From positions 1,178,001-1,242,000 of the forward strand of contig NZ_JACHGY010000001.1 in assembly GCF_014207595.1 (NCBI RefSeq): a DNA stretch of 64,000 nucleotides. The letters run 5' to 3'. Position 1 is the first letter of the stretch; every line of letters begins with the position of its first letter. The position numbers were made by a program, and so were the translations under genes. Source of the DNA: Algisphaera agarilytica (GTDB lineage: Bacteria; Planctomycetota; Phycisphaerae; Phycisphaerales; Phycisphaeraceae). This document shows positions 16,440-37,706 of the stretch, one piece after another. The notes beneath the pieces were generated by a model. That model ran no database searches. It was not told the DNA's origin and worked only from the letters and a program-made list of their open reading frames with translations.

Positions 16440-17137
16440 GCGATAGCAGCACCCCGATCATGCCTGCGGCCGAGGAACTCGCGGCCCGCACCATCAGCTT
16501 CCTGGCGGCGGACGGTTACACGTCCAGCGTGATGAAACTGCCGCGCCCACTCCTAAACGAGCTAGGGCGTCGACTGGTTGAGCCGGGTGCCAAGCGAAGC
16601 AAGATCATCGACTGGCTGCGTGAGGAAGAGATCGATACGCCCGAGCGTAATCTCGATCGCTTCGCCCAGCGATTCCGCGAAGCCTACAAGGTCGAGTGGG
16701 GCAAGGCCGCCGACGAGTTGCTCATGGCCGAGCGAGCCGCAGCGGGAGACTTTGATCGGCTCAGCTACGAGCGTGTCACCCGCAACCGCGGTGCCGTCCT
16801 CATCGCACAGAAGCTGGCCACAACCAACGTCGCGGATTTGGACATCGGTGATATCCAGCGCATCACCAACGTGCTTTCGTCGATGGACCACGGCGACATC
16901 GAAGCGGCCAAGCTCGCTCTGCAAGAGCGTCAGGCCGATGATCGGGCAACCAAGCTGCAAGCCGAGGTCGATCGCATCAAGCTCGAAACCGAGCAGAAGA
17001 AAGCACGGATCGAAGAGCGTGTGAAGGGGCTTCAAGCCCGCATCGACGATCTGGAAAACCGAGCCAAACGCGGCGGCTCGATCGATCCGACGATCTTCCA
17101 GCAGATCCGTGAAGAGCTGACGGGGGTGGCCGCCTGA
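16436..17137 (+). CDS. Small terminase subunit-like (Mu gp27 / DUF3486-like)
   Basis: 233 residues from GTG 16436 (GTGA overlap with the upstream stop). N-terminal helical DNA-binding-like part and a central coiled coil (about 160-210, EVDRIKLETEQKKARIEERV shortened), the layout of the Mu gp27 small terminase. It immediately precedes the large terminase with a TGATG overlap. Would recognise phage ends and start packaging. Confidence 0.7.
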   Translation: MSDSSTPIMPAAEELAARTISFLAADGYTSSVMKLPRPLLNELGRRLVEPGAKRSKIIDWLREEEIDTPERNLDRFAQRFREAYKVEWGKAADELLMAERAAAGDFDRLSYERVTRNRGAVLIAQKLATTNVADLDIGDIQRITNVLSSMDHGDIEAAKLALQERQADDRATKLQAEVDRIKLETEQKKARIEERVKGLQARIDDLENRAKRGGSIDPTIFQQIREELTGVAA

Positions 17138-18576: not shown

Positions 18577-20957
18577 GATACCTGAACCGCCTGGTCGCCG
18601 CCGCCCAGCTCCTAGTCCGTGGCCCGGTCCCGTTCAGCCGTTGGCTCAGCCAGGTCGCGGCCGGTGGCAAGGACCGACCAACCGAGGTCTACAACCAGGT
18701 CGCCCCGGTTCGCGTATGCGTTCAATACATCTCGCGGATTGTGGGCTCGATCCCGTTCCGCATCTCGACGCCCGACAGCGAGATCATCGAGACCGGCCCA
18801 CTCGCACAGCTGGCCGTGCGGCCGAACCCCAAGCAGAGCATGGGCCAGTTCATGCGGGACAGCGCTGCGTTCTGGTTGATCTACGGCCGGGTTCATTTCT
18901 GGACCACCGGCCAGACCGTCAACGAACTCGAAAGCATCACGATCAACCCCCTCCAGATGGAAGCCATCGAAGAAGAGGGCGAGCTTGTCGGGTGGTGGTA
19001 CTCGCCCCTGGGTAACGGCGAGCGCGTCCGCCTGCCTCTCGACGAGGTTCACACCTTTGTCGATCCCGACTACCACGCCCCGGACAAGGCCTGGAAGGGG
19101 ATGGGCGCACGCGAAGCGGTGGCCATGGCGATCGCTCAGTACTACAAGGCGGACCTCGCCAACGAAGCCAGCCTGGACAACGATGTCCAGCCGAGCGGAG
19201 CGGTCAGCACCGAGCAGAACCTGTCCCCCGATCAAGAGCGGTCTCTGCTGAAGCAGATCGACGCCGAGTACGCGGGCAGCCGCAACCGTCGCCGCATCAT
19301 GCTCCTACAGGGCGGCCTGAGCTGGCAGCAGATGGCCGCCAACTTCACCGACATGGAGTTCATGGAAGGCCGGGCGTTCAGCCGCGAAGAGATCTGTGCG
19401 GCGTTCGGTTTGAAGGCCATTCTGTTCTACGGCCAATCGGGCAGCGGCCTCAATGACGACCAGGCCCAAAGCGCCGGGGTCACCGCCCACCAGGGCGTGA
19501 TCCGTCCGCTGATGCGGATGCTCGCCGAAGAGTTCAACTGCGCGGTGTTGTCGCGCCTCCAGAACGATCGGAGCATGACTCTCCGCGATGGCTTGAAGCG
19601 TGGCGACTGGTCGCGTCGCAAGATGCTGGACCGACAACGCGGCAGCGACTGCTACCTCCGCGTGCGTGATGCCGCGGTGGCTCAGGACCTGCTTGCCGTC
19701 TCGTGGTTCGATGACACCGGCGAGGCCGTCACCGTTGAGCTGTGGCAGCATCAGGCAACGGGGGCCAAGACCTGGTTCGACATGGGCGTACCGCTCAACG
19801 CCATCATCGACGCCACCGACGCGCCGTTCGAGAAGCTTCCGCACGGCGACATCCCGCGGATCGCGATGGGATTGGTCGCTGCGGATGAGACCGGTGCGGC
19901 CGAGCCCGGCTTCGATGATCCCGATGGCTCGATCTCCCCAGGCGATGAGCTGGGCGACCCGCTGACCGAGCCCGAAGAGGCCTCGGCACAGCCGGTGCAG
20001 CGCGAGCTTTCCGAGTCTCAGCTGACCGCGATGTGGCGGAACCTTCGTGCCCAAGTGACGGGAATCGAGAAGCAGCTCCTGAACCCCTATAAGCGTCACC
20101 TCATGCAGCTCCGGGCCGAGAGCTTGGGCAACATCCGGCGGCTTGATCCCGGCCGCCCCGAGGTCGATCGGTCCGCGGATCTGAAGAACGTCGTCGTGTG
20201 GTACGACGACTTCGACGGCCGCGAACGTCAGGTCAAGGTCCAGCTCAGCCGACAGCAGCGAGATCTCCTCGGCGATCTTCTCTTCGATCTCCGCAAGGCG
20301 ACCGACGGCCGCTGGGCGATCGTCGCCAAGTTCATGCGACAGGGGTTGGCTATCGGGGGCAACCAGTCGATGGCTGAGGCCGCCTCGGCCGAAGATCGTG
20401 ATGAGCCCGATCCGTTCTCCCTGGATGATCCGGGTGTTACCGAAGCGCTGCGCCGCCGAGAGTTCGACATCGCCGGGCTCACCACCGCCCAGCGTGATCG
20501 TCTCCGCGCGGTCTACGCCCAAGCCCTGGCCGATGGCAAGACCACCGCCGAGCTGGTCGAGATCGGACGCAAGCAGTTCAACATCGAGTCGGGCCGCGCC
20601 AAGCTCGTTGCGTTCCAGGAGTCGTCCTCGGCCGTCGAGGAAGGACGGCAGCTCGGTCGTGAGCAGGCGGGCGTTCCGGCGAAGAGCTGGCTGTGGAGCC
20701 GCAAGGAAACCGGGCGATCGGCCCACGCCGCCACCGAACGCGCGACCCTTGCCGACCCCGTGCCCATTGACCAGGACTTCACGATCGCAGGAACCTCCAT
20801 CACCTGCCCCCACCCGCGTGCCACCGGCATCGCCGAGCAGGACATCAACTGCGGCTGCACCACGATCAGCCGCTACCCCGGCGATCGCGTCCGTGATCTG
20901 GCGGTGCTTCGTTTCATAGCCACCGCTCGAACCCCAATGGAAACGAACACCCCATGA
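18573..20957 (+). CDS. Portal protein fused to MuF-like head morphogenesis domain
   Basis: 794 residues. The N-terminal 420 residues are a portal of the HK97/phage portal type (RVCVQYISRIVGSIPFR, then LIYGRVHFWTTG and, near 260, SREEICAAFGLKAILFYGQSGSG). After a linker the C-terminal 200 residues have the MuF/SPP1 gp7 ending: H-rich helix, 'ATGIAEQDINCGCTT' shortened, as in minor head proteins. In most phages portal and MuF are separate genes. Overlaps by ATGA with the terminase and protease genes. Confidence 0.85.
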   Translation: MRYLNRLVAAAQLLVRGPVPFSRWLSQVAAGGKDRPTEVYNQVAPVRVCVQYISRIVGSIPFRISTPDSEIIETGPLAQLAVRPNPKQSMGQFMRDSAAFWLIYGRVHFWTTGQTVNELESITINPLQMEAIEEEGELVGWWYSPLGNGERVRLPLDEVHTFVDPDYHAPDKAWKGMGAREAVAMAIAQYYKADLANEASLDNDVQPSGAVSTEQNLSPDQERSLLKQIDAEYAGSRNRRRIMLLQGGLSWQQMAANFTDMEFMEGRAFSREEICAAFGLKAILFYGQSGSGLNDDQAQSAGVTAHQGVIRPLMRMLAEEFNCAVLSRLQNDRSMTLRDGLKRGDWSRRKMLDRQRGSDCYLRVRDAAVAQDLLAVSWFDDTGEAVTVELWQHQATGAKTWFDMGVPLNAIIDATDAPFEKLPHGDIPRIAMGLVAADETGAAEPGFDDPDGSISPGDELGDPLTEPEEASAQPVQRELSESQLTAMWRNLRAQVTGIEKQLLNPYKRHLMQLRAESLGNIRRLDPGRPEVDRSADLKNVVVWYDDFDGRERQVKVQLSRQQRDLLGDLLFDLRKATDGRWAIVAKFMRQGLAIGGNQSMAEAASAEDRDEPDPFSLDDPGVTEALRRREFDIAGLTTAQRDRLRAVYAQALADGKTTAELVEIGRKQFNIESGRAKLVAFQESSSAVEEGRQLGREQAGVPAKSWLWSRKETGRSAHAATERATLADPVPIDQDFTIAGTSITCPHPRATGIAEQDINCGCTTISRYPGDRVRDLAVLRFIATARTPMETNTP

Positions 20958-21784
20958 AGAACCGCACCCACATCCTGTCCAACGGAAAGCTGGCCGACGC
21001 TCCCGAAGTGAAGTCGAAGGCGTTCGGATACACCGAGCACCGCATCTTGAGCGTTGACCCTGAGACCCGCACGGTCGAAGCCATCGTGAGCACGGCCGCC
21101 CTGGACAGCTACCGCGAGAGTGTGCTGCCCGAGGCGTTCGCCAAACGCCTGCCCGATCGTTTCAACAAGAACGCTCCGCTGCTAGCCGGGCACGTCTACC
21201 ACGCCGAAGACGGCACCCCGGGCAAGATCGGCGAGTGGACCGAGATGTCGGTGAAGACCGTCGAAGGTGTCGGCAAGGCGCTGGTCGGCAAAGCCACGAT
21301 CTTCTCGGGTTACGAGCTGGCCGACACCTGCTGGATGATCATCTCGCAGAGCAAGTCCGTCGCGTTCAGCGTGGGCTGGCTGACCCACGCCTCGGAGCTG
21401 CGCGAGATGGACGTCGAGGGGCAGAAGACCAAGGTCCGCGTCTACACCGACGTCGAGCTGGTCGAGGTGTCGTTCGTCACCGTTCCCGCCAACCCCGAGG
21501 CCGTCGTTCAAGCCTCGATCAAAGCTCAACGGGACGTCACCGTCGCGTGGGGAGCGCCCGAAGAACTCGCCCAATTCATGGCCGATTGGAACCAGCGTTT
21601 CGATCAGCTGACCCAAAGCATTGAAGAACTCCAGGCCGACTTCGACTTCGAGCCCGGAAGCAAAGCGCACGAGCTGGTGAGGCACACCATCCGACAGATG
21701 CGCAGCTCCGGACACCAGGAAGCCGACGACGGCGGTGTGCCACCCACGTCGCACCCGGTGCTAGAGCACCTGGCGCAACAGTAA
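20954..21784 (+). CDS. Prohead protease (S78/HK97-type)
   Basis: 276 residues. LLAGHVY supplies His80 and SVAFSVGW supplies Ser139, comparable to the HK97 protease His/Ser. Processes scaffold and capsid and then itself. A long charged C-terminal extension follows (about 190-276). Starts by ATGA overlap with the portal stop. Confidence 0.85.
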   Translation: MKNRTHILSNGKLADAPEVKSKAFGYTEHRILSVDPETRTVEAIVSTAALDSYRESVLPEAFAKRLPDRFNKNAPLLAGHVYHAEDGTPGKIGEWTEMSVKTVEGVGKALVGKATIFSGYELADTCWMIISQSKSVAFSVGWLTHASELREMDVEGQKTKVRVYTDVELVEVSFVTVPANPEAVVQASIKAQRDVTVAWGAPEELAQFMADWNQRFDQLTQSIEELQADFDFEPGSKAHELVRHTIRQMRSSGHQEADDGGVPPTSHPVLEHLAQQ

Positions 21785-21839: not shown

Positions 21840-23135
21840 ATGAAACTCTCTTCCGCCGCTCAGAAGTTCCTCGACTCGATGATCGAAAAAGTCGAGGACG
21901 GCGACACCTTCCTCGATGTCGTCGGCCGCGCCGTCGGCGAAGTCGAAGACGTCAAGGACCTCGGCGACATGCGTTCTGCGATCAAGCAGCTCGAAACCAA
22001 GGTCGCCGAGGACCACACCAAGGAAATCAAGGATCTGCGCCTCCGCGTCGAGCGGGCCGAGAAGCGGGCCTACAACGGCGTCAATCAGTACCGGGGCGCG
22101 TTCCCCAGTGAGGACGCCGCCCGCACCTTCGGCCTCACCATGATCGGCCGGTTCGCCACCAACAGCGAAACCCGCGACTGGGCCCAGGACGTCCTGAAGA
22201 CCGACCACAAGACCCTCCACGACGGCCTGGCCAAGAACCGGGTCTTCACGACCACCACCGCCGACGCCGTCATCCCCGAGATCTGGCTGACCACGATGGA
22301 AGACCTGCTGGACACCCACGGCGTCTTCGAGCGTGACGCGCTGTCGGTGCCCATGACCTCGGACCTGGTCCACTGGTCGAAGAAGACCGGCCGGGTCTCC
22401 GCGGTTCCCATGGCCGAGGGCGGTTCCCTGGCCAGCAGCCAGCCGACGATCGACGGGCGTGAACTCACCGCCCGCAAGTGGGGTGCCTACACCGAAGTCA
22501 ACAACGAAGCCGCCGAAGACGCGATCATCGCGATCGCCGAGTTCATCGCTGCGGACATGGCCGAGGCCCACGCCTTGGCCGTGGACGAGGCGGGCTTCCT
22601 CGGCGATGGCAGCGGGACCTACAACCAGATCACCGGCGTGCTCAACGCACTGGGGGCCGGTGCCATCGTGAACGCCGGGGACAACGCCTGGGGCGGCTAC
22701 ACCTACGAAGCCCTCACCGCCGGGATCGGCAAGTGCACGGTGAAGACCTTCTCGGGCATCGGCCAGCCCAAGTGGTACTGCTCGCACACGTTCTACTGGA
22801 CGGTGCTGGCTCCGCTCCAGCTGGCGGCCGGTGGCAACACCATCGCCGATATCGGTCGGGGTCCGGTTCCGATGTTCGCGGGCTTCCCGGTGCAGTACAC
22901 CCAAGTGCTGCCGCAGACCGCCGCGGGCACTCAGATCCCGCTGATCTTCGGCAATCTGCGCCGTGGTGCCGCGTTCGGGGATCGCCGCCGCCTGACCTTC
23001 AAGGCCAGTGATCACTTCAAGTTCGCCAACGACCAGACCGCGATGCTCAGCACGCGCCGCTACGACATCGACGTGCACGGCGGTGGTGACGGCAGCAACG
23101 CCGAGACCCTCGTCGGCTTCCGTACCGCCGCGTAA
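21840..23135 (+). CDS. Major capsid protein (HK97 fold)
   Basis: 431 residues. A coiled N-terminal delta/scaffold domain (about 1-85) is followed by a typical HK97 capsid core (RVFTTTTADAVIPEIWL, WGAYTEVNNEAAEDAI, DEAGFLGDGSGTYNQITG, each shortened). Good ribosome binding site (AGGA). A strong hairpin follows at 23166-23194. The delta domain is probably removed by the upstream protease. Confidence 0.85.
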   Translation: MKLSSAAQKFLDSMIEKVEDGDTFLDVVGRAVGEVEDVKDLGDMRSAIKQLETKVAEDHTKEIKDLRLRVERAEKRAYNGVNQYRGAFPSEDAARTFGLTMIGRFATNSETRDWAQDVLKTDHKTLHDGLAKNRVFTTTTADAVIPEIWLTTMEDLLDTHGVFERDALSVPMTSDLVHWSKKTGRVSAVPMAEGGSLASSQPTIDGRELTARKWGAYTEVNNEAAEDAIIAIAEFIAADMAEAHALAVDEAGFLGDGSGTYNQITGVLNALGAGAIVNAGDNAWGGYTYEALTAGIGKCTVKTFSGIGQPKWYCSHTFYWTVLAPLQLAAGGNTIADIGRGPVPMFAGFPVQYTQVLPQTAAGTQIPLIFGNLRRGAAFGDRRRLTFKASDHFKFANDQTAMLSTRRYDIDVHGGGDGSNAETLVGFRTAA

Positions 23136-26143: not shown

Positions 26144-27997
26144 ATGACCACCAACCCCCAGCCCATCGAGCAGCAGATCAAGGTCACCGCCGACACCGGC
26201 GGTGTGGCCGAGACGTCGCAGGCGCTGGAGCAGTTGACGGCACAGAACGAGCAGGCCAGTCAGGAAGACCAGCTCCGCGAGCAGCAGATTCTTTCGATGC
26301 GTATCGAGCTGAAGAATCTGATCCGCGAGCAGCGTGAAGCGGAGCGGGCGGTCGAGGCGGGCGAGCAGGCCACCGAGGAAACGAGACGGGCTGAAGAGCA
26401 GCGCCGTCAGAAGATCCGCGTGCTCAGCCAGGAGATCGCACGGGCCGAAGACGAGCAGGAACAGCTCAACCGTCGTCTTGACCAGGGCGTGGCTGCGCAT
26501 CGACGACTGGGCCAAGCAAACGACGGCACCACTCAAGGCGTTAGCAGGCTCGATGATGTGGTCAACGCGGCAACAGGTCGACTTGCCGGAATGGTCGGGG
26601 GCATCCTCGGAGCTGGTGGGCTAGTCCGAGCGTTGCAGGTCCTGGGGGAGGAACTAGATCGCCGCATCGAGCAGACTCGGGAGTTCGCCGAGGCCCAGCT
26701 CAACCTGCAGTTCTTGGACACGTCGTTCAATGAACAGGAGCGTGAGTTCCTCGGTCAGGCGGCCCAACTGGGTGGCCGTAGTCCCGCCGAGATCGCACGT
26801 GCATACACGTCGCTCCGTAGCCGTTTCCCGGATCGATCCAACACTGAGTTGCAGGGGTTGTTCCTTGAGATCGTTGAAACAGGCGTTACCACCGACGCCG
26901 ACCTCGGCACGCTGACCGATGCCTTTGCGGGTTTGTTTGCGGAGAACGGCGATTCTCAACGCTCCCAGAACATCCTCCGTGAAACCATCACGCAAGCGGG
27001 CGTGGGCGACCCGGGTGTGATCTCTCGGCTCCTGGGCAAGTTCCTCGGCCCCGGTCAGCAGATCGGTAATGTCAGCGAAGCCGAAGCGGCGGGCCTTGTC
27101 GCGGGCGCTACGGGCCTGGATACCCGACAGCCCGAGGAGCAAATCACCGGGCTGCGTAGTGTGCTCCTCTCGCTCCTGGGCAGCCTCAGCGACGAGCAGT
27201 TGGAGATTGCCCAGGGCGCGGGTATAGATCGGAGTTCGATCAACACTGCGCTGCTCACACTGGGGCAGGCAATCGAGGCAGGCCGCATCGACGCGGCGGG
27301 TCTTGAGCAGCTTGTTGGTGCCGAGGGCGTGACTACTGCGACTGCCTTGGGTGATCCGGCCAAGCGCGGCGCCTTCTTCGAGAAACAAGCCGCCGTCGTC
27401 AGAGCGGCAGATTCCGAGGAAGACCTGACGGGGTTGGCGATCGATAACATCTTCGCGCAAGACGAGGTACAAGCCCTCAACTTTGCCATCAAGCAAGTCG
27501 ATGCCCGCACGGCAGTCGCCGAGAGTCAGGACGTCGATGCGCTGCGTGGTGAGCTGGCGATCAAACTTCAACAGGCCGAACAGCGCGATGCCGGTGTGGG
27601 GGCCATCGGCCGCTCGATCTCCGGTCTGACGAACCGAATAGCACGGCTTCTAGGCGCGGATGCAGACACATCCATCACCGCGGGCGAGGTGGCTCTGGAT
27701 TACACCGACGCCTTCGGCCCCGCGTTGCTTGGGCTTTCGGCTGATCAGTCTGATCGCTATGCCGGTGAGCAACGAGCCCGCGAACAGCTGCAGCGTGTGA
27801 GAGAGACCGGCCGTATCGATGAACCGGAGATTGCATCGCCCGCCCAACTCAACGCTGATGCGGTGGAAGTCCTGGGCGAGATCCGTGATGAACTCAAGAA
27901 TGGCTCACGCGGTGACATCACGATTCACGGCGATGTATATGGCGACCAGGACCCCGCGCTTAAGGGGCTAGGGGGGGCGTACGGCAATGCCCGATAG
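26144..27997 (+). CDS. Tape-measure protein
   Basis: 617 residues. N-terminal coiled coil of about 110 residues (AEETRRAEEQRRQKIRVLSQ), then long alpha-helical Ala/Gly-rich repeats, with a hydrophobic segment near 145-165 (GRLAGMVGGILGAGGLVRAL) and more at the end; typical of a tape-measure protein. It is short, so the tail is probably short to medium length. Overlaps the next gene by 11 bases. Confidence 0.7.
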   Translation: MTTNPQPIEQQIKVTADTGGVAETSQALEQLTAQNEQASQEDQLREQQILSMRIELKNLIREQREAERAVEAGEQATEETRRAEEQRRQKIRVLSQEIARAEDEQEQLNRRLDQGVAAHRRLGQANDGTTQGVSRLDDVVNAATGRLAGMVGGILGAGGLVRALQVLGEELDRRIEQTREFAEAQLNLQFLDTSFNEQEREFLGQAAQLGGRSPAEIARAYTSLRSRFPDRSNTELQGLFLEIVETGVTTDADLGTLTDAFAGLFAENGDSQRSQNILRETITQAGVGDPGVISRLLGKFLGPGQQIGNVSEAEAAGLVAGATGLDTRQPEEQITGLRSVLLSLLGSLSDEQLEIAQGAGIDRSSINTALLTLGQAIEAGRIDAAGLEQLVGAEGVTTATALGDPAKRGAFFEKQAAVVRAADSEEDLTGLAIDNIFAQDEVQALNFAIKQVDARTAVAESQDVDALRGELAIKLQQAEQRDAGVGAIGRSISGLTNRIARLLGADADTSITAGEVALDYTDAFGPALLGLSADQSDRYAGEQRAREQLQRVRETGRIDEPEIASPAQLNADAVEVLGEIRDELKNGSRGDITIHGDVYGDQDPALKGLGGAYGNAR

Positions 27998-28409
27998 CGT
28001 CTACCTCATAGACAACGATCCCGTTAACGACCGGCAGGATTGGACGAATCGGCCCGCGGTGTCGGCGACTGGGCCGGTGCGTCAGGAGGCTTTCCCTGGT
28101 TCAGGGATCACCTACACCATGACCGGGCCGAAGCGTGGGGCTCGCGTAATTGTCGAGGGCTGGCTAGAAGCAGAAACCAGCGCCGCCTTGCGTGCTCTCG
28201 TAGAAGAGCAAGACGATCTGCGATTCGATGCGGCCACCCATGCGGTGGAGATCCTTGGCACGACCTACAACGACTGCCAGCTCGCCGAACCCCTTCGTGT
28301 GGTTGGTGACCCTGTTCCCTTCGTAGCCGTGGGCAACTCCAACAGGATGCGGCAAAAGGTCCGCTACGTCTGGCAGCAGCTGAGCGCCGAGGGAGGGACC
28401 ACGTCATGA
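27987..28409 (+). CDS. Distal tail protein-like
   Basis: 140 residues, beta-rich, no motif. After the tape-measure gene and before the large hub, the usual position of the distal tail protein. Starts inside the tape-measure gene (11-base overlap). Confidence 0.4.
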   Translation: MPDSVYLIDNDPVNDRQDWTNRPAVSATGPVRQEAFPGSGITYTMTGPKRGARVIVEGWLEAETSAALRALVEEQDDLRFDAATHAVEILGTTYNDCQLAEPLRVVGDPVPFVAVGNSNRMRQKVRYVWQQLSAEGGTTS

Positions 28410-30607
28410 GTGGAAACATCGGCCCCCTCACCCACAGCGTCTACGTAAAGAAGGTCCGCACCCCCGGTAGTTCGTTCGATGGTTCGCCGGTGGGCGCACC
28501 GACCGACGGCGGCTTCACGATCGACTACAGCATCCGCTGCCTCATGTTCTCGTGCATCCTGGGCGCATCGGTCGGCCGGGCCGACTTCGACTTCATCTCA
28601 CAGGACGGCGGCCTGCCTGAGTTTGAGCATGTGCTCAATACCTACACCACCGACGACCAGATCCGTGTCACGGTCTCGCCGATGGATCACGAGGTCCTGG
28701 GCGTCGAGCTGCCCGACGGCGTGAGTGAGTTGACCGTCTTCGAGGGCGTGATCGAACGCATGCCCTTCTCGGTTGGCCTGCCTGGTGCACGCGATGACGA
28801 GCGGGTGGACTTCATCGCCATGCCGCTGCCCGCTTTGGACAACGTCGCGCCCGAGCACTTGATCACCGGCCGATGGGTCGCCGTCGATCCCACCGCCCAA
28901 ACCATCGAGCCCGCGGTCATCGAGTCGCTGGACCTGCCCGCGGCGTTCAACCTGGGCGGCAAACCCAACCGCAGCGACCAGACCGTCAACGCCACCCTCA
29001 GCGGCCTGGCCGGCCACGTCTTCACTCATGATCGCGACCCCAACGGTTCCTACTGGACCGTGGCCGAGGCGATCCGATCGATCCTGGTGATGTGGGGCTT
29101 TGGCCCCGACTCCGCGACGGCACTGCCCCGCGGCTTCGACCTGGATAAGGAAACGCTCGCCGCGATCATGGCCGACACCGCCCCCGAGGGCCGCCGCTGG
29201 GAAGGGCTCGACGCGATGCTGCCCGAGATCAACGTCCACGGCATGGGCGTCCTGGAGGCCATCGACGCCGTCTGTGACGCGGCCGGGTTCGAGCTGGCGG
29301 TTATGCCACACTACGGCCTCAAGACCGAGTACGACCGGCTCTACGTCCTCGGCATCAACCGCATCGGCGGAGGCACCGAGGCGTTCTTCAAGCTCGAACC
29401 GCGCGGGGCGTTTGCCAGCGACGACCACAACGAAGTACTGCGCAACAACTCGGTGTCTACCTTCCGGGGTACGCGTGACGCGGCGCGGATTCGCAACCAG
29501 ATTATGAGCGTGGGCCACGCCTACGTCGAGGCGGCGCTGCAGCTCAAGCCGTTGTGGCTCCCGTCCCAGGTCACCCAGGACACGACCGACACCAACTACA
29601 CCGCCCGTCACGTCCGCGGTGGTGCCGAGTTCGCAGCCTATCGGCGTGTGGGCCGCGCCTGGGGCATCGACTGCCTGGGCACCTGGGCGGCAACCGCGGG
29701 CGGCTACAGCAACGCGATCTACCAGCACCCCAGCGGCGGCTTTGACTGGGTGAGCGAGCTGGGCCTGACGGGCGGCGGCTCGGAACTGGTCGCCGATCGC
29801 CTGGCCAACGGCAACGCGACGCCGATCGTGTGGACCCGCAAGATGCGCAACCTGCTCCCGCTCAAACGGGCGGAGGCCCAGGCCAACGGCCAGCAGTACA
29901 TCGTGGAGGTCACCGAAGACGGCGGCTCGACGTGGACGGAGGTGGACATCCAGATCACCACACTCCAGGAAGAGTGCGGGCTGCAGTTGGGTATCCAGGA
30001 CCTGTCGAAGATCAACCTGGCCAGCCTCGAAAACCCGAGCCTAATCCCCGCGCCCGAAGACAGCTGGTGGGGCCTGATGTTCCCAACTTCCGGGGGCGGT
30101 CAGCCGCAGTTTGCGGTTCGCGTGACCTGCTGCGTTGCGGCCGACCACGGCGCGACCGCGTTGGCCCCGCGGCGATCGTCGGCCGGTTCGGTCTACCCAC
30201 GCCAACGCCTGGTCCGCTCGGCCACCGAAGAAGTCTGGTCGGTCCCCGGAAGCATCCTCAACACCTCGGGCGAACTGCAGCGGATCGAGGGATGGGGCAC
30301 CACCGCGTACACCGATCGGCTGCCTCCCTTGGACCTGGCCGAGCGCGAACGCGACGCCCACGAGACCCTCCGCGTCTCGGCCGCCGCGACGACCTGGGCG
30401 ATGGACTTCTGGCTGTGGTTCTTGGGCGACCGTGTGAGCCAGCTGCAGGGGCGCAACTACCGCTTCGACATCTCGGCCGACGGCGACCGCAGCCCGTCGA
30501 TCGCGGGCATCTACGTCACGCTGTCGGGCAAGGGCGAAGAGCCCGAGAAGGACCAGAACATCCGCCTGGCGTTGAGTGACACCAGCTACATCGGGGGGCG
30601 GCGCTGA
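28406..30607 (+). CDS. Large tail hub/baseplate protein
   Basis: 733 residues, mostly beta. Contains no catalytic motif I recognise. Position after the tape measure suggests the tail-associated hub of a siphophage. Overlaps by ATGA upstream and by TGATG downstream. Confidence 0.5.
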   Translation: MSGNIGPLTHSVYVKKVRTPGSSFDGSPVGAPTDGGFTIDYSIRCLMFSCILGASVGRADFDFISQDGGLPEFEHVLNTYTTDDQIRVTVSPMDHEVLGVELPDGVSELTVFEGVIERMPFSVGLPGARDDERVDFIAMPLPALDNVAPEHLITGRWVAVDPTAQTIEPAVIESLDLPAAFNLGGKPNRSDQTVNATLSGLAGHVFTHDRDPNGSYWTVAEAIRSILVMWGFGPDSATALPRGFDLDKETLAAIMADTAPEGRRWEGLDAMLPEINVHGMGVLEAIDAVCDAAGFELAVMPHYGLKTEYDRLYVLGINRIGGGTEAFFKLEPRGAFASDDHNEVLRNNSVSTFRGTRDAARIRNQIMSVGHAYVEAALQLKPLWLPSQVTQDTTDTNYTARHVRGGAEFAAYRRVGRAWGIDCLGTWAATAGGYSNAIYQHPSGGFDWVSELGLTGGGSELVADRLANGNATPIVWTRKMRNLLPLKRAEAQANGQQYIVEVTEDGGSTWTEVDIQITTLQEECGLQLGIQDLSKINLASLENPSLIPAPEDSWWGLMFPTSGGGQPQFAVRVTCCVAADHGATALAPRRSSAGSVYPRQRLVRSATEEVWSVPGSILNTSGELQRIEGWGTTAYTDRLPPLDLAERERDAHETLRVSAAATTWAMDFWLWFLGDRVSQLQGRNYRFDISADGDRSPSIAGIYVTLSGKGEEPEKDQNIRLALSDTSYIGGRR

Positions 30608-31002: not shown

Positions 31003-32039
31003 TGCGATTGAAGACGTTTCAAATGCTGTTCGTGAGTGCTGTGATGCTGGCCACCTTCCCCGCGTTGGGCCAGGCCACCGAGGGCACGATCACGATCGAA
31101 GAGCCCGACTTCGTCCAGCCGATGAACGACAAGCTCGACGCGATTCAAGAACAGAACAAGTTGATCATCGATCTACTGCGTAGTCTCGGGCAGATCGAGG
31201 ATGAGCCCGGCGTGGTAACGCCTCCCGTGGTTGAGCCTGGCCCCGCCGTCGAGCTTGAGCCGTCCGGCCCGATTCGCATCATCGCCGCACCGGGTGAAGA
31301 CGTTGTGATTCGAGGCAAGCGAATCCAAAACGACGGCCGCCCCGGAATTGATGGGCCGCAGCACGGCATCTATGTGGGCGGTCAACCCAACTCGGTGCTG
31401 GTGGAGGACGTCGAGGTTTCGGGGTTCCCGTATGGGATTGCAGTGGAGTCGCGTCGGCAGTCTGCGGACGAGCCGTTCCCCGATCCGGTCCCCGTGGTCA
31501 CGACGCGTAGGGTCTATGCCCACGATAACTACAACGCGGGGGAAGGCGACGCTCACGACCGGCGTGGCAGCGGCATGTTCGGCTTCAATATCGAACACTG
31601 GATCATCGAAGACAGCTTCTTTGAGAACAACGGCTTCAAGCCCGGAGTTCACCCCGCCAACACGTTCAGCCACAACCTCTACATCGTGAACCGTGTCGGC
31701 CTGCTGACCCTCAACCGCGTCTTGCTGAAGGACGGGTCGAGCCATGGCATCAACGGCGGCGCGGTGAGATTCGACGGTGTGATCGCCTCGGGCAATGCGG
31801 TGAACTTCGGCGTCAAGGAGAACGTCGAACCCCAGCGTGATGGTTGGTCGCTTGCGGTGTCCGACCGAGAGCTGCGTGGTTACGGCAACCAGGTCGTTGC
31901 ACCGGCGTGGCATTGGTACAACTCGAATCCGCTTGACGGAAAGGTGCAGACCCGCGAGCAAGACCCGATCGAATGGGATCTGATCCGCCGCCTTCCGCCT
32001 GCCGATCGCTGGCCCGCAGCAAGGGGGATGTTGGATTGA
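30999..32039 (+). CDS. Beta-helix protein with a signal peptide in the tail operon
   Basis: 346 residues. N-terminal signal peptide: basic start, hydrophobic core LFVSAVMLATFPALGQA with probable cleavage after Ala25-Ala26. Then a coiled stalk and, from about 80, right-handed parallel beta-helix-like repeats (VLVEDVEVSGFPYGIAVES, TRRVYAHDNYNAGEGDAHDRRGSG shortened). Beta-helices occur in tailspikes and in polysaccharide lyases. A signal peptide is unexpected for a virion protein, suggesting either export from the host or an adapted host gene. Confidence 0.55.
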   Translation: MMRLKTFQMLFVSAVMLATFPALGQATEGTITIEEPDFVQPMNDKLDAIQEQNKLIIDLLRSLGQIEDEPGVVTPPVVEPGPAVELEPSGPIRIIAAPGEDVVIRGKRIQNDGRPGIDGPQHGIYVGGQPNSVLVEDVEVSGFPYGIAVESRRQSADEPFPDPVPVVTTRRVYAHDNYNAGEGDAHDRRGSGMFGFNIEHWIIEDSFFENNGFKPGVHPANTFSHNLYIVNRVGLLTLNRVLLKDGSSHGINGGAVRFDGVIASGNAVNFGVKENVEPQRDGWSLAVSDRELRGYGNQVVAPAWHWYNSNPLDGKVQTREQDPIEWDLIRRLPPADRWPAARGMLD

Positions 32040-32794
32040 TCGCCCCTACCCAAGCCTATCTCCTTCAGTGTGCCAGCCACGGCAGCGGCCCCGAAACGCT
32101 GTTCGCCTCGTGGAGCATCCACCATGGATGGCAGCGTCAGATCGATCGGATGCAAGCGATCGTCGATCAATACGGCCCGCGTGTGATCGATTGGCATCTC
32201 CCCTTCGGCCACACGGGCGACTGGCCCTATCTATTCTCGCAGGCTCGCTCTAACCGCTACACCAAGACTGCGCCCGAATCGATGAAACCCAAGGCCGTCG
32301 AGGCGGTCTTATCCTCGTGGCACAAACGCAACCCCGACTCGCCGATCCGCGTCTACATCGGCGATATGGAACACGACCCTGCCTTGCGCGACGCGAATAA
32401 CCCCGACCAACGCAACACGGTGATCACCGACTCCCTCAAGCCGCTGTATGACAGCGGCGTGCGGATGATTGGTCTGGACCGATCAGCGACTTACGCGGCT
32501 GGCACATGGATGGCTGAGACGATCCAGGCCCAGGCTGCCAACGGGGCAAACATCTACCTTGAGGCCTGGCCCGAGCACGAGTGGCAGTCCGGTTACAACG
32601 TCATCGGTGCGGCCTCCACGCTGGCGCGGATGGACCCCTCTGTACATGCCGACTCAGCGGCATTGGGCCGATTGCAACCCGACAAACTGGGGGAGGTGGT
32701 CGCCTACTGTTTTGATACGAGGCACGTTGAGGCTGCGGTTACACGGGGCTGGATTCCATCGGCAAACATTTATGTTTGGCAGGGGGGTGCGTGA
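32036..32794 (+). CDS. Possible TIM-barrel (glycosidase-like) phage protein
   Basis: 252 residues from TTG 32036 (AAGGGGG upstream, overlapping the previous stop). Alternating strands and helices with acidic residues at strand ends (VYIGDMEHDP, MIGLDRS, NIYLEAWPEHEW) suggest a TIM barrel; a glycosidase acting on surface polysaccharide, or the missing endolysin, is possible. Not a recognised family. It ends in a 25-base overlap with the convergent PEP-CTERM gene. Confidence 0.4.
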   Translation: MIAPTQAYLLQCASHGSGPETLFASWSIHHGWQRQIDRMQAIVDQYGPRVIDWHLPFGHTGDWPYLFSQARSNRYTKTAPESMKPKAVEAVLSSWHKRNPDSPIRVYIGDMEHDPALRDANNPDQRNTVITDSLKPLYDSGVRMIGLDRSATYAAGTWMAETIQAQAANGANIYLEAWPEHEWQSGYNVIGAASTLARMDPSVHADSAALGRLQPDKLGEVVAYCFDTRHVEAAVTRGWIPSANIYVWQGGA

Positions 32795-33690
32795 TGTTGC
32801 TTGTTGCGACGAAGGGCAAGCAAACTGCAGCTGCCAAGGATAATTGCCGCCGAGGTGGGCTCTGGAACACCGTGCCTCGCCATATCGGCGTACAGGGTAT
32901 CGAGCACAATTTCGTTGACTATCGCGGAGGTCGAGGCCCCGAGGGCTTCGGAGTAGACCCCGTCGAGGTCGTCACCGTACAGCGTGGCGAACGTCGTGAC
33001 CGAAGCAGCGTATCGGCCGAGACCATAGCTGGCGTGGATGTGGTCGCGGAAAAGATCGGTGTGGGAGGTGTAGCCGGGAAGGTCACCGGCAGTGATCGCC
33101 AGCGCCAGCTCATACATGACCTCGCCGACGGGAATCACGAAGACCTCGGCGTCGGTGGAGGCTGCAACACGCTCGTAAACCAGTTGGGAGTGCCCGAGCC
33201 CGTAGCCAAACGCCGTGTCGTCATCGTCGACCACCGGGCTGTTCCAGTGGCTGAACACTTGGTACCGCAGACCCCATGCGGAGTAGATGTAGAACCGCGT
33301 GTCTGCGTTCGCGGAGTTCGACCTGGCGTCAGCGATCAGGCCCAAGGCGGCGTCGGCCTCACTGCCGAGCGTAGCGCCACCGGCCGCAAAGGGTTGGAGC
33401 GTAACCGCGTCCCATTCATGCCCGGACAAAGCGGAATCGTACTTGCCAAAGCTCGTCGGGCCGACGCAGGTTGTGATCGGGTCGGCCACGATCTGGCCCA
33501 GCGAAGAGTTGCATCGGATGTGATGGCCAAAATTGTGGTCGTAGCCCTGGCTGGTGGCGAGCGAATCGATGGATTCAGGCTGCGAGTCCCACGTCAGGCT
33601 GTTGCCGACATGGTAGACCGAGATGGCATGCGCGCTGGTCGCGCACAAGCACAACCCCAATATTCCGCCGAAGCGGGTGGAACGGTTCAT
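32770..33690 (-). CDS. PEP-CTERM surface protein with SGNH-like hydrolase domain (prophage cargo)
   Basis: 306 residues. N-terminal signal peptide to about Ala22. HVGNSLTWD near 27-35 and DHIH at 216-219 fit SGNH-hydrolase blocks I and V (Ser in GNS, Asp-x-x-His). The C-terminus VPEPTSAAIILGSCSLLALRRNK (275-297, shortened) is a PEP-CTERM sorting signal: PEP, hydrophobic stretch, basic end. These signals are host exosortase substrates, so the protein is meant for the host surface in the lysogen. It opposes the surrounding tail genes and lies directly next to a tail SGNH gene. Confidence 0.75.
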   Translation of the reverse strand: MNRSTRFGGILGLCLCATSAHAISVYHVGNSLTWDSQPESIDSLATSQGYDHNFGHHIRCNSSLGQIVADPITTCVGPTSFGKYDSALSGHEWDAVTLQPFAAGGATLGSEADAALGLIADARSNSANADTRFYIYSAWGLRYQVFSHWNSPVVDDDDTAFGYGLGHSQLVYERVAASTDAEVFVIPVGEVMYELALAITAGDLPGYTSHTDLFRDHIHASYGLGRYAASVTTFATLYGDDLDGVYSEALGASTSAIVNEIVLDTLYADMARHGVPEPTSAAIILGSCSLLALRRNKQHHAPPCQT

Positions 33691-33768
33691 GGTTTTTCTT
33701 CCCAGAAGGCCCGGAATTGGGGTACTTCTGAGATGAACCTACCTCACAAATTCACGGAAGGCAAGTAA

Positions 33769-35055
33769 ATGGCAGCTCCACGCACCTACAAACTTGGGGA
33801 CGCGGCCCGGCATATTGCCAGTGGCGAGCGATGTGATCTTCTGTGGTTGGGAGACAGCCAAAGCGCTCCGTCTAACTCGCCCCGCTGGGCGCAGGGGATC
33901 ATGAAGCAGTGGGATGTGGACTGGCGTGAGCGCGTACTCGCCAGTGCTGCCCCCATCAGCGCTGGTGTAGAAGGCTGGCAGAGTTTTAAAACGCCGGGTA
34001 TCGCTACATCTTCAGGGGACTTGTTGCCCGATGGCGTAACGGTATGCCCCCCTGGATTTAACGCAAACACGAGATGGGACACAGGAAGTCCTAGTGCCTT
34101 CACGCAGGTTGCTAGGTACGCGTCGTCATTCCTTGGCACTTACCTCAACGGAGACTGGACGGTCAACAACGCCATCAACTGGCGTTTTGCAATGACCAAG
34201 CTTTCGGGCAATAGCCCGTGTCGCTTTTTACGTCGCCGTGCGAACGGGAACTTGGCAACGACAGCGGTCGATTTTGAAACCACCCTCGTCCCGTCAAGCG
34301 ATTGGCAGGCGGTGGATTTCTCTGGCGCTGCGAGCGGCGTAGTCGCATCGGGCGTTAACGGTGAGGAGTGGTTCCTCGATCTTAACTTCGGCGACAAGAC
34401 CAACAAAGGTGTCTGCCTGGGCGGTTACGCAATATCGATTGACGGAAAGGCCGATGGCTTTGGCCTTCGCTTCAGTGCGGCGGGTGGCTGGACGGCTCTC
34501 GACCACCTTCCCGTATCCTTGGGTGGAACGAATACTCTCGTCGATCTAGATGATTTGCAAGCGAGAAACGGGGTCTTTGGCTGGCCAACCGCCATCTTCA
34601 TCCAGCTTGGTCAGAACGATGCCGGACTCACCGATGGGACCACGCCGACAGGTATAGCAAACTACAAATCGCGCTTGCTGCAGCTCATCGATCACTACAA
34701 CATCGCTTACGCCGCGTCGGCGCAGCCCACGCCGATGTTCGTCCTGGTGTGCAACTGGGAGACCTCGGGGCTCGGCGCTTACTGGCCCAGCATTGCGACT
34801 TCCCTTCAGGAGATTTGCGACGAGCGATCGAACTGCGGCCTTCTCAATCTGTATCAGATCGTCAATGAAGAGCACGGAAGCTTCGCATCTTGGCAAGGCA
34901 CTTACCTTGCCGACGGAGTGCATCAGAATACGGCTGGGGCTAGCGAGTTTGCTCGTCTGGCGTGGAATGAATTACAAGTCGCAGCCGTTACGGGGATTGT
35001 GGTGTTGACTAATGGAATCGGATCATTTGGATACACCAAGAGCTGGGGATATTGA
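33769..35055 (+). CDS. Tail-associated SGNH hydrolase/esterase
   Basis: 428 residues from ATG 33769 (GGAAGG upstream). LLWLGDSQS gives block I Ser30; IQLGQNDAG (281-284) block III; DGVHQNTAG supplies Asp382/His385. This is an SGNH esterase, likely deacetylating surface polysaccharide during adsorption. The central 200 residues are beta-rich, perhaps binding the virion or sugar. The last bases overlap the next start by one base (35055). Confidence 0.75.
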   Translation: MAAPRTYKLGDAARHIASGERCDLLWLGDSQSAPSNSPRWAQGIMKQWDVDWRERVLASAAPISAGVEGWQSFKTPGIATSSGDLLPDGVTVCPPGFNANTRWDTGSPSAFTQVARYASSFLGTYLNGDWTVNNAINWRFAMTKLSGNSPCRFLRRRANGNLATTAVDFETTLVPSSDWQAVDFSGAASGVVASGVNGEEWFLDLNFGDKTNKGVCLGGYAISIDGKADGFGLRFSAAGGWTALDHLPVSLGGTNTLVDLDDLQARNGVFGWPTAIFIQLGQNDAGLTDGTTPTGIANYKSRLLQLIDHYNIAYAASAQPTPMFVLVCNWETSGLGAYWPSIATSLQEICDERSNCGLLNLYQIVNEEHGSFASWQGTYLADGVHQNTAGASEFARLAWNELQVAAVTGIVVLTNGIGSFGYTKSWGY

Positions 35056-35516
35056 TGATGTTGCAATTTCAACAGAACGACACCACGCAGCCGCACCGCT
35101 TCCGGCTTCTGGATACCAGCGGCGATGTGGTCACCGGCGCGACTCCAGCCGTGGAGATCATGAAACCCGGGCAAAGTGCCTACTCGGCTGCGTCTGGGGC
35201 GGTGACCGAGTTGAGCGAGGGCAACTACAGCTTTGCGGGTCACGCGGGCGACCGTGACACTCTGGGTGTGATGCTCGTTCGAATCACGGCCGCCGGTGCC
35301 GAAACGCTGGAGGGGCCGGTCACCATAGTTGGGCATGACCCACAGCAGGCTCTCGCTTTAGTGGCCGCGGTACTCACGGGCGTTCGCACCGTTACGGACA
35401 ACGGAGATGCCACCAAGACTGTGCGATGTATGGCCTCGGATGGCGTCACACCCAAGGTAGACCTTACCCACAACGCCAATGGAGAGCTGACCGCCGTCGT
35501 GATTGACCCCACGTGA
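35055..35516 (+). CDS. Tail-fibre-linked beta protein
   Basis: 153 residues from ATG 35055 (TGATG overlap). Short beta repeats (FRLLDTSGDVVTGATPAVEIMKPG shortened) resemble small carbohydrate-binding or baseplate-attachment domains next to fibres. No family recognised. Confidence 0.45.
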   Translation: MMLQFQQNDTTQPHRFRLLDTSGDVVTGATPAVEIMKPGQSAYSAASGAVTELSEGNYSFAGHAGDRDTLGVMLVRITAAGAETLEGPVTIVGHDPQQALALVAAVLTGVRTVTDNGDATKTVRCMASDGVTPKVDLTHNANGELTAVVIDPT

Positions 35517-36163
35517 TCATGCTGTTCTTTCCTCACCAGTTCTGGCCTGCTGGGTTGATGCCCCGCGGATTCTTCCCCGACGATGCGAGCCGGTACGAGG
35601 TCATGCGCCGGGTGTCCGGCGGCGACGATGTCGTTTCGGCGGTCTTGGAGCCCGGCACCATCCAGGCCAGTTTGACCGGCGTGGATAATTCGGACGAGGA
35701 CTACTACGTCCGCGTCTACAACCGCTGCAACCTGCCAGACCAGGACCCGATCGAACTGGATCTCAAGCGAGTGGCGTTCGACAACGACGGGGATCTGATC
35801 CTGCCCGTTCCCCCGGCACCTACGGGCCTCAGCCTGGTCGCGGGTCCCGGCGGCCTGGTCACGGCCAAGTGGGTCAAGCTCAACCGCCGCGGGCGAACCA
35901 ACGCCCAGAGCTTCAACGTCTACTTCGCAACAGGAGCGACCCCGATCGACTTCACCACCGTCTCGGCCACTTCTTCCGGGGGCGGCCGTCCGGTCAGCCA
36001 GGCCCTGGGCACGTTCGCCCACGGCACCACGGTCCGGGTGGTGGTCCGCGCCGTGTCGGCCGACGGGACCGAGGAAACCAACACGATCGAGGCCAGCGTA
36101 GTCGCCGATGCTCAGGCCCCTGATGCCGTCGCGTCGCTTAGCGTAGAGGTGACCGCGCAATGA
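35513..36163 (+). CDS. Fibronectin type III-like tail protein
   Basis: 216 residues from GTG 35513 or ATG 35519. Residues about 110-190 resemble a fibronectin type III domain (PPAPTGLSLVAGPGGLVTAKW, then FNVYFATG and VRVVVRAVSADG). Such domains are common on phage tails and bind surfaces weakly. Coupled to both neighbours. Confidence 0.5.
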   Translation: MIMLFFPHQFWPAGLMPRGFFPDDASRYEVMRRVSGGDDVVSAVLEPGTIQASLTGVDNSDEDYYVRVYNRCNLPDQDPIELDLKRVAFDNDGDLILPVPPAPTGLSLVAGPGGLVTAKWVKLNRRGRTNAQSFNVYFATGATPIDFTTVSATSSGGGRPVSQALGTFAHGTTVRVVVRAVSADGTEETNTIEASVVADAQAPDAVASLSVEVTAQ

Positions 36164-36555
36164 ACCGCCGCCCCGATCCATTTGGTGACTCGTTGATGCG
36201 TGAGGTCGAGAACCGCCGCCTGGTGGATAGCCAGGCACGCCACGAAGGCAGCGACCCACCCCCTCCGCCCGGCGTGGCCGTCGAGCTGTTCGAGGTCGTG
36301 AGCCAAACCGCGGGCGACAAGGTCGTGGGCAAGCAGATCATCGACGGCGAGGTGCCCGAGGGTGCGGCCGAGGTGGATCTGCTCGCTCCGTTCACGGCCT
36401 GGAAAGTCAACCAGGGCGACACGGTGGCGGCGTACTCGTTGGCGGACGGGACCTGGCGTTTGCTGAGCGAACCGCCCACCGGTGCCGCTGAGTACCAGGT
36501 GCCGATGGCGGATGCGGACGGGCTTTTGATCTTCAGCTACCCGAGGGCCCACTAA
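36160..36555 (+). CDS. Small tail protein of unknown function
   Basis: 131 residues. Charged start, proline-rich linker at about 30-40, then a small beta domain. Starts by ATGA overlap and ends with a one-base overlap with the next gene. Confidence 0.45.
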   Translation: MNRRPDPFGDSLMREVENRRLVDSQARHEGSDPPPPPGVAVELFEVVSQTAGDKVVGKQIIDGEVPEGAAEVDLLAPFTAWKVNQGDTVAAYSLADGTWRLLSEPPTGAAEYQVPMADADGLLIFSYPRAH

Positions 36556-37706
36556 TGCCGTGGAGCGGTTTCCCATTACAGGTCAATGATGAGTGGGCCT
36601 CGCTGGTCTACCTCGATCAGATCTCGGCCGCGTTCGCGGAGCGGGTCACCGCGATGGACCCGCCCGGTTTCACCGTGAGCCCGCTCGTCGCGTTTGCTGC
36701 CGGGGATGTACTGGCAGATCGACTGGCCGACTACCAGACCGGAGTCGAGGGGCTGGTCTTCTTCTACGGCCGATGGCTGGACCACATTGCTCACAGCGTC
36801 CAGGATGTCACCACCTACGTGGAAGCCATGACAGACCTGCCCGGCACGTTCCGGCGGTTCATGCCTCGGACCATCTCCGACGTGGGAGATTCGGGCACGT
36901 CGGGCGAGCGAGCCTACCTGGGCGTCTACAACTCGGAAGACAACGGGCGGGCGGATTCCGCATCGAGCGACATCTATGAACACGACGGCGTGAGCTGGAC
37001 ACTGTCGGCCGACCAGGTGTCGCCGGTCTCACAAACCGAGGCGGCGGGCAAGATCCAGGCGGGTGACCGCCTCGGCTATTGGCTGGTTAACGACCTCTAC
37101 ACGATGCTCAACCTGGTGCACACCTGCCGGATTCAGCTACGCCTGGCCACCGTCGAGCGGTACACCGGCCAGGCCAACGGCGAGGCGAGCGAAGCGGCGG
37201 CGATCGCAGCGGCCGAGGAGGATTACGCCCAGGTGATCGCCCCAACCTACGTCGGGACCGGTGGTGTGGACGCGCTCGCATTCGCCAGCCTCACCCGCTC
37301 GGGCTCGTCCTACGACGCTTTGATCTCCAGGGTCACGCGACTGGTTCGTGAGACTTTCGGCCCGAGCGTGATGCTCAACAGCTCGCTGAGCCACATCGTC
37401 GAGTTCTTTGGGGTCGCCGACGAAGCCAACAACGACCGCCAGGGGAGCACCGCGGGCCAGGTCCGGCTCGACGGTGAGGACATCTACACACCGCGCTGGC
37501 GGCCGAGCCTGCCCCTGGACATGACCAACGGCGAACCGGTGGGCGGCATCGCGGATACATCGAGCACGCCCCCCAACTGGCCGACCCTGCCCGCCAGTGG
37601 CAACGCCAGTGATATCCTGCAATGGACCGGAGGTGATGAGCTTGATGGGCTGATCACCTTTTCGTTTGAGTACAACGACGGCCTGCCGGGAGGCGGCCTG
37701 ACATGA
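36555..37706 (+). CDS. Last late-operon tail protein
   Basis: 383 residues, helical first half, no hydrophobic segment. No family recognised. Being last in the tail operon it is probably a fibre or chaperone. Its stop is shared with a small ATGA-coupled frame at 37703. Confidence 0.45.
   Translation: MPWSGFPLQVNDEWASLVYLDQISAAFAERVTAMDPPGFTVSPLVAFAAGDVLADRLADYQTGVEGLVFFYGRWLDHIAHSVQDVTTYVEAMTDLPGTFRRFMPRTISDVGDSGTSGERAYLGVYNSEDNGRADSASSDIYEHDGVSWTLSADQVSPVSQTEAAGKIQAGDRLGYWLVNDLYTMLNLVHTCRIQLRLATVERYTGQANGEASEAAAIAAAEEDYAQVIAPTYVGTGGVDALAFASLTRSGSSYDALISRVTRLVRETFGPSVMLNSSLSHIVEFFGVADEANNDRQGSTAGQVRLDGEDIYTPRWRPSLPLDMTNGEPVGGIADTSSTPPNWPTLPASGNASDILQWTGGDELDGLITFSFEYNDGLPGGGLT

Follow-up and report, generated by a model that had tools for sequence, protein, structure and literature searches.

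A 64,000-nucleotide (nt) stretch of Algisphaera agarilytica DNA, referred to here as the window, carries a Mu-like prophage whose tail region contains, on the minus strand, a gene for an SGNH hydrolase whose N-terminus resembles a signal peptide and whose C-terminus carries a PEP-CTERM sorting signal (32770-33690; hereafter the minus gene and minus protein). On balance, we lean towards the interpretation that this gene is host-derived, moron-like cargo encoding a surface-anchored polysaccharide esterase that acts in lysogenic conversion. A gene of host origin would have been taken up, in reverse orientation, into a slot in the tail region of a Mu-like planctomycete phage, and would be expressed in the lysogen to the benefit of the phage; its product would be exported by Sec, a host exosortase would anchor it at, or release it from, the cell surface via the PEP-CTERM tail, and the enzyme would remove ester groups, most likely acetyl, from the host extracellular polysaccharide. 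The adjacent gene on the plus strand (the plus gene) encodes a second SGNH protein, which would act in the virion on first contact, the minus enzyme acting in the lysogen. The features of the two genes are as follows.

32770..33690, minus strand: DUF4886-like hydrolase of the SGNH type, putatively secreted, ending in a PEP-CTERM tail; Ser31/Asp216/His219
33625..33690, minus strand: putative signal peptide at the N-terminus (codons 1-22), with AHA preceding residue 23; translation read by eye
32797..32868, minus strand: PEP-CTERM sorting signal VPEP...RRN; TIGR02595; G000:C1:1210797-1210868 in the whole-genome scan
33691..33768, no strand: divergent intergenic region, 78 nt between the start codons, with start-proximal purine tracts for both genes
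33769..35055, plus strand: probable tail enzyme, an SGNH hydrolase without a visible signal peptide; Ser30/Asp382/His385

Fold and catalytic residues of the minus protein

In the list of open reading frames (ORFs) of the window, the minus gene encodes an SGNH hydrolase of 306 amino acids. Two blocks of the SGNH superfamily are present, the Ser nucleophile motif (G29-N30-S31-L-T33, GNSLT) and DxxH (D216-H-I-H219), and the family alignments show little or no variation at Ser31, Asp216 and His219. The N-terminus, MNRSTRFGGILGLCLCATSAHA, was judged by eye to be signal-peptide-like: n-, h- and c-regions and the AHA are visible, and the homologue at locus L092 has the same N-terminal layout. For both SGNH genes, the ORF list and the translations agree with the positions and motifs given in the initial annotation of this DNA.

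The predicted structure of the minus protein, computed with an alignment of 21 homologues (21 of 79 homologue loci; L108, L118, L167 and L128 were excluded), has a predicted local distance difference test score (pLDDT) of 86.9. Among solved structures it comes closest to 4i8i, from the DUF4886 family (Z 22.1, root-mean-square deviation 2.7 over 223 residues), which is also its best solved relative by sequence (E 1.7e-10); the next matches, at Z about 14-15, are esterases, CE3 and Axe2 among them, and many of these are carbohydrate acetyl-esterases. The Pfam profile of DUF4886 (PF16227) scores 22.5 bits on the minus protein, under the gathering score of 26.7, and among its relatives the profile is over that score at L093 (29.7 bits) and under it at L092, L096 and L097. 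We therefore describe the minus protein as DUF4886-like by its modelled fold and, because of the Pfam score, do not assign it to the family. A carbohydrate ester is the likely substrate, to judge from the enzymes that the model resembles.

An ORF on the opposite strand, 32776-33768, overlaps the minus gene, and the possibility that the minus ORF is its shadow was ruled out by codon-position composition, family matches and fold. The guanine-cytosine (GC) content by codon position is 0.59/0.49/0.77 in the minus frame versus 0.74/0.49/0.59 in the plus ORF, and the minus frame, unlike the plus ORF, matches the pattern of the neighbouring genes.

The sorting signal and the host exosortases

The initial annotation had recognized a host-type sorting signal in the minus protein, and the profile searches bear this out. 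The C-terminus is VPEPTSAAIILGSCSLLALRR, the ending also being given as VPEPTSAAIILGSCSLLALRRNKQHHAPPCQT, and the NCBIfam PEP-CTERM model TIGR02595 scores 17.3 bits on the protein, over its cut-off of 16; this short model is of limited specificity, since 2 of 14 control genomes also exceed its cut-off. Scanned by pattern for tails of the PEP-CTERM type, the whole window returned one gene, the minus gene; the scan recovered 20 of 20 host loci used as a control. The host genome contains 85 PEP-CTERM frames over the TIGR02595 cut-off, the minus gene included, and three exosortase genes over the PF09721 cut-off, which one of 14 control genomes also exceeded; two of the three are also over the stricter TIGR02602 cut-off. 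With three exosortases and 85 PEP-CTERM frames in the host, the tail of the minus protein could be read by the host machinery, and cleavage and surface anchoring of the minus protein by a host exosortase would follow from a signal of this type.

A variable slot inside the prophage

The two SGNH genes lie in a slot bordered by conserved phage genes.

30607..31002, plus strand: left slot border, conserved in L081 and L083
30999..32039, plus strand: slot gene, signal-peptide-like N-terminus MMRLKTFQMLFVSAVMLATFPALGQA, beta-helix-like by eye; no Pfam match
31973..32794, plus strand: slot gene, fold unassigned, convergent with the minus gene; 25-nt overlap
35052..35516, plus strand: slot gene with no assigned function; no homologue in L081/L083 at E 1e-4
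35513..36163, plus strand: right slot border, conserved in L081 and L083 (46-49% identity)

Two related prophages, L083 (genome G414) and L081 (genome G060), have homologues of the left-hand genes starting at 27987, 28406 and 30607 and of the right-hand gene starting at 35513, with the gene order conserved. In L083, the left-border genes are preceded, on one contig, by homologues of the portal, protease, capsid and tape measure genes. The head genes of G060 (L082) lie about 100 kb from its tail genes (L081), on a single contig, C11, and in opposite orientation, and by this arrangement the prophage appears to be either rearranged or misassembled. Between the slot borders, L081 and L083 carry other genes; the SGNH genes are thus in a variable slot inside the phage, and the minus gene is absent at the same place in these two relatives, as is expected of a moron gene. 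The possibility that the minus gene is host DNA outside the prophage, which the initial annotation had named as a condition that would undo its proposal, is ruled out by the conserved phage genes on both sides; its placement within the prophage, between conserved tail-region genes, holds.

Between 15.3 and 37.7 kb, the minus gene is the sole minus-strand gene (in our choice of genes from the ORF lists), which fits the expectation for a separately transcribed cargo gene. Its 3' end overlaps that of the convergent gene 31973-32794 by 25 nt. The orientation also bears on the idea that the minus protein is a lysis aid, that is, a secreted enzyme made late that loosens the host coat to release virions. 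Its position in the late region, and the signal-peptide-like N-terminus of the neighbouring product of 30999-32039, would suit such a role, but the minus gene is antisense to the late operon, so that late transcription would not yield its mRNA, and anchoring through a PEP-CTERM tail would suit a standing cell more than a lysing one. We consider a lysis function very improbable.

As for the other slot genes, 30999-32039 is possibly a second secreted product of the slot, and 9 of 298 class genomes, its own included, have large ORFs with weak similarity to it; 31973-32794 matches in 2 of 298 genomes, its own included, and has a distant relative in its own genome (G000:C1:2317138-2317617, E 2e-4). 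The same variable slot in the G060 prophage contains a gene for a QueC-like PP-loop protein (L081:11048-11476, plus strand, E 2e-6). PEP-CTERM-type tails were absent, by pattern, from 11 partly overlapping stretches, ten from related phages and one containing L086, a locus with a homologue of the plus gene. Bare PEP-CTERM tails used as queries against phages and plasmids had no match in either; since even plasmids returned none, such queries are probably lost to low-complexity filtering, and these negatives carry no weight.

Two further ideas about the slot were dropped. GC content at third codon positions (GC3) is lowish in the slot genes (0.63-0.77), and a foreign origin cannot be diagnosed from it, given that other phage genes reach 0.69-0.72 and that 20 host PEP-CTERM genes span 0.51-0.93. 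A mobile element around the minus gene was discarded because the repeats near it are limited to a single direct and a single inverted one, each of 12 nt.

Relatives and origin of the minus gene

The minus gene has a match in 16 of 397 genomes of the class, its own genome included and one (G092) by the tail alone; in this search the matches at L022 and L025 lie mostly in the C-terminal tail, and L023 is another fragment of L015. From a larger genome collection, the best 80 of 97 confirmed stretches were kept, corresponding to 79 loci. No protein of this phage had a match, at E 1e-4, in the flanks of those 79 loci; the one further match was to an AraC-type regulator. Among the seven best-ranked loci, six were inspected (L095, on a 3-kb contig, was omitted), and no phage hallmark was seen by eye in their listed ORFs; L092 is near a glycosyltransferase and L093 near a sulfatase. 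When ten neighbours, two each from five loci, were compared with the PHROG families, seven had no match, two matched families of unknown function and one, at L093, matched head-protease families; the last is NfeD by Pfam. By these neighbourhoods, the minus-gene relatives that were found resemble host genes.

The nearest relatives found are 40-45% identical to the phage copy, and a search of the host genome returned no close copy (next match E 0.04). For the tree, 94 loci were taken and four duplicates removed, which left 90, 34 at 60 bits or more and 56 lower. One side of the tree contains the phage gene together with all 14 rows titled Planctomycetota (support 98/97); other rows from genomes of the same class occur on both sides, and the tree does not place the phage gene more finely within its side.

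Conservation of the PEP-CTERM signal in homologues, on which the initial annotation had made its proposal depend, holds in part. By pattern, 11 of the 34 homologues of at least 60 bits have such a tail (5 of 34 are cut off by contig ends), as does one of the 56 homologues below 60 bits (L024; 2 of 56 cut off). L024 is also over the curated TIGR02595 cut-off; L010, L011, L014, L015, L092, L093, L097, L103 and L110 are under it, and L104, with IPEPS in its aligned part, was left out of the tail count and has no TIGR02595 score. Other homologues end in dockerin-like repeats or in nothing, and some carry both a dockerin and a PEP-CTERM-type tail. From these alignments, the sorting tail appears to be a recurrent, not a constant, element of the family. 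The strict count, given below with the other adverse points, makes the signal less well conserved across the family but leaves its presence in the minus protein unaffected.

Cargo or passenger

Several observations weigh against the interpretation that we favour. Only two of the 11 pattern-positive homologues, L096 (19.7 bits) and L016 (17.9 bits), exceed the TIGR02595 cut-off. In the whole-genome TIGR02595 scan, the tail of the minus gene (20.6 bits) ranks 69th of 92 rows, low among those of the host itself, and it extends 11 residues past the RR (NKQHHAPPCQT), more than any of the 20 host tails compared. The extension coincides in part with the antisense of the end of the neighbouring phage gene, which would fit the loss of the original stop codon when the gene was captured. 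No sigma-70-like promoter, the only type scanned for, was matched in 33691-33768, and 6 of 20 sampled host PEP-CTERM genes have a GC3 at or below the 0.765 of the minus gene, which GC3 therefore fails to distinguish from them. According to PMC9487903, DUF4886 has no member with an established activity. Relatives of the minus gene were absent from viral contigs (in a pattern-based search, including one nine-residue pattern, that is blind to divergent relatives), from phage records (by tblastn) and from the related prophages L081 and L083; a single occurrence in prophages may be a chance pick-up without function.

The main rival follows from these points: the minus gene would be a passenger, a captured host gene that brings the phage no benefit and is possibly little expressed, and its ORF would be intact either for want of time to decay or because the host alone profits from it. 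The single occurrence, with no homologue found in phages or in the two related prophages, and the C-terminus that reads on into the antisense of the neighbouring gene's end argue for a passenger. Conversely, the modest identity to the nearest relatives and the lack of a close host copy mean that a very recent local capture is not seen, and the signal-peptide-like start, the catalytic triad and the sorting tail are all intact. We give the passenger a real but clearly smaller chance, and retain the cargo gene for a surface-anchored polysaccharide esterase as our preferred interpretation.

The plus-strand SGNH gene and the pair

The plus protein (428 amino acids) contains the superfamily blocks GDS, GxND and DxxH, as G28-D29-S30-Q (GDSQ), G281-Q-N283-D (GQND) and D382-G-V-H385-Q-N (DGVHQN). 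Lipase_GDSL_2 (PF13472) scores 24.3 bits on it, under the gathering cut-off of 32.9, and its PHROG match is weak (phrog_15881, 'tail protein', E 9e-4). In the alignment of its family, the Asp and the His are invariant, and the Ser block is covered by only three of eight rows; a structural model made without an alignment (pLDDT 32) was left unused. Relatives occur in 9 of 397 class genomes, its own included. The gene next to the homologue in L086 encodes a tail tubular protein according to both Pfam (Tube, E 1.6e-18) and PHROG (phrog_446, E 4.4e-29), which marks the L086 contig as phage; L085, L087 and L090 have signal-peptide-like starts, with no phage genes seen around them, and look like secreted host proteins. 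No match to the plus gene was obtained in the pattern-based search of viral contigs or by tblastn against phage records. Because it has no signal peptide and is positioned among tail genes, the plus protein of the window is most likely a virion esterase; the initial annotation had read it as a tail protein, and its gene position, the PHROG match and the L086 homologue agree with a tail enzyme.

A gene at L085:9245-11509 (minus strand) combines a signal-peptide-like start, a relative of the SGNH domain of the plus protein and a beta-helix region matched only weakly (E 0.019, under cut-off), and looks as if genes of the window's slot existed elsewhere as a single secreted protein.

The initial annotation had further proposed that the two enzymes share the same chemistry and form a pair that blocks superinfection or changes receptor state. 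The first part is not supported: the two proteins come from separate SGNH families, whose profiles compare at Prob 0.2%, and have only the superfamily in common, and since the family profiles do not align, a duplication was likewise ruled out. Nor is the pair a conserved unit, the genome of the window being the only one among the 397 class genomes with both genes; on this count we treat it as one case. Superinfection exclusion would require that the enzyme of the lysogen strip the ester group recognized by the virion SGNH protein, so that related phages fail to adsorb. The adjacent, divergent arrangement of the genes would suit this, as would the precedent of temperate Klebsiella phages, for which capsule (de)acetylation has been proposed to affect phage competition (PMC13123978); the difference in families and the lack of a conserved pair speak against it, and, as a special case of coat editing in the lysogen, we think it unlikely. 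The broader proposal that the phage uses the host exosortase pathway, with its own PEP-CTERM esterase on the lysogen surface and the virion SGNH enzyme, working on that coat from outside, jointly controlling entry into the cell, is one that we put forward as doubtful.

The Mu-like prophage

The other phage genes that define the element are listed below.

4649..5809, minus strand: MuB-like transposition ATPase (phrog_296, E 3e-37; Pfam)
5806..7920, minus strand: MuA-like transposase (Pfam; phrog_310, E 2.8e-79)
17137..18576, plus strand: large terminase, 25-28% identity to SfMu, D108, B3 and others (70 phage records)
18573..20957, plus strand: portal protein fused to a Mu F-like domain (profile matches)
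20954..21784, plus strand: prohead protease (profile matches)
21840..23135, plus strand: HK97-type major capsid protein (profile matches)
26144..27997, plus strand: tape measure-like protein (phrog_167, E 0.0013; homologues in L082 and L083)
28406..30607, plus strand: large conserved tail-region protein, 733 amino acids (nothing matched in Pfam or PHROG at E below 0.1)
36555..37706, plus strand: last phage-side gene; by gene order, the last gene before a putative metF (by eye) in L081

Because of the MuA- and MuB-like genes and the terminase matches in SfMu, D108 and B3, we classify the prophage, by gene content, as a transposable phage of the Mu type; this would account for the absence of an integrase from the prophage genes scanned. 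The capsid protein had no tblastn match in the phage records. The gene 36555-37706 matches L081 in gene order, the sequence comparison with the related prophages giving no match, and a host-type AraC/LacI-like regulator begins at 38447; at the prophage ends, no clear terminal inverted repeat was found, and no empty site in relatives. Three further genes are recorded for their own sake. A phage-type DNA methyltransferase (2373-3632, minus strand; phrog_67, E 3e-53) lies beside the transposition genes, and a phosphopantetheine attachment (acyl-carrier) domain is encoded at 13594-14055 (plus strand; E 5e-6, over cut-off), in or beside the early region. Near two genes for helix-turn-helix regulators, 12770-13423 (minus strand) encodes a putative metallopeptidase (DUF6782, E 1e-4, under cut-off), which, as a guess, is possibly an ImmA-like repressor protease.

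Comparison with known systems

Lysogenic conversion, SGNH enzymes in phage tails and PEP-CTERM enzymes are each already known separately. For the plus gene, the fitting counterparts are the SGNH receptor-binding proteins of temperate Klebsiella phages and G7C gp63.1, tail-module esterases that deacetylate host surface polysaccharide at entry; two SGNH tail proteins of the Klebsiella phages have been shown to be esterases (PMC13123978). Those systems have enterobacterial hosts, and a host-sorted companion enzyme is not mentioned in the passages covered; compared with their proteins, both SGNH proteins of the window lack a tblastn match in phage records.

The minus protein shares its fold, catalytic residues and motif order with the DUF4886 SGNH hydrolases (PF16227; 4i8i), and differs from them in falling under the curated Pfam score, in being phage-borne and in its PEP-CTERM tail. 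Its planctomycete relatives L092, L093, L096 and L097, with 32-41% identity over the enzyme domain, the GNSLTWD motif and a PEP-CTERM-type tail by pattern (over the TIGR02595 cut-off in L096 only), are chromosomal, show no phage hallmarks and have dockerin domains, whereas the phage copy has no dockerin.

Prophages are known to change the host surface mainly via transferases acting in glycan synthesis; the gtr-type conversion enzymes are of this kind, and O-acetylases are further lysogenic-conversion genes for surface polysaccharide. The minus gene differs from transferase-type conversion in that it would supply a secreted hydrolase with a host protein-sorting signal. It resembles the gtr genes of P22 and BTP1, by which prophages bring about lysogenic conversion of surface polysaccharide, in being a gene of a prophage with a known or presumed effect on the surface glycan of the lysogen (PMC10883804 and PMC4413052).

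A bacterial polysaccharide deacetylase with PEP-CTERM is on record in an exopolysaccharide cluster; it is likewise a PEP-CTERM enzyme expected to act on exopolysaccharide substituents, but it belongs to a bacterial cluster and is not reported as a phage gene in the part of PMC6491731 available. Searches of the open PubMed Central (PMC) literature that pair PEP-CTERM or exosortase with phage turned up no title or abstract in which a phage-encoded case is described, and passages of PMC13123978, PMC9487903, PMC12642866, PMC4886054, PMC6491731 and PMC12288469 contain no phage gene with a PEP-CTERM signal; within the limits of these searches, the minus protein might be the first phage-encoded exosortase substrate described. 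If our interpretation is correct, the addressing of a prophage product to the surface by the host's own protein-sorting code would constitute another route of surface change, in a group, the planctomycetes, whose phages and surface glycans have received little study, and a virus may remodel the coat of its host if the enzyme acts at the surface of the lysogen. As one gene that is present or absent with the prophage, the minus gene offers a concrete test of the function of an exosortase-anchored enzyme.

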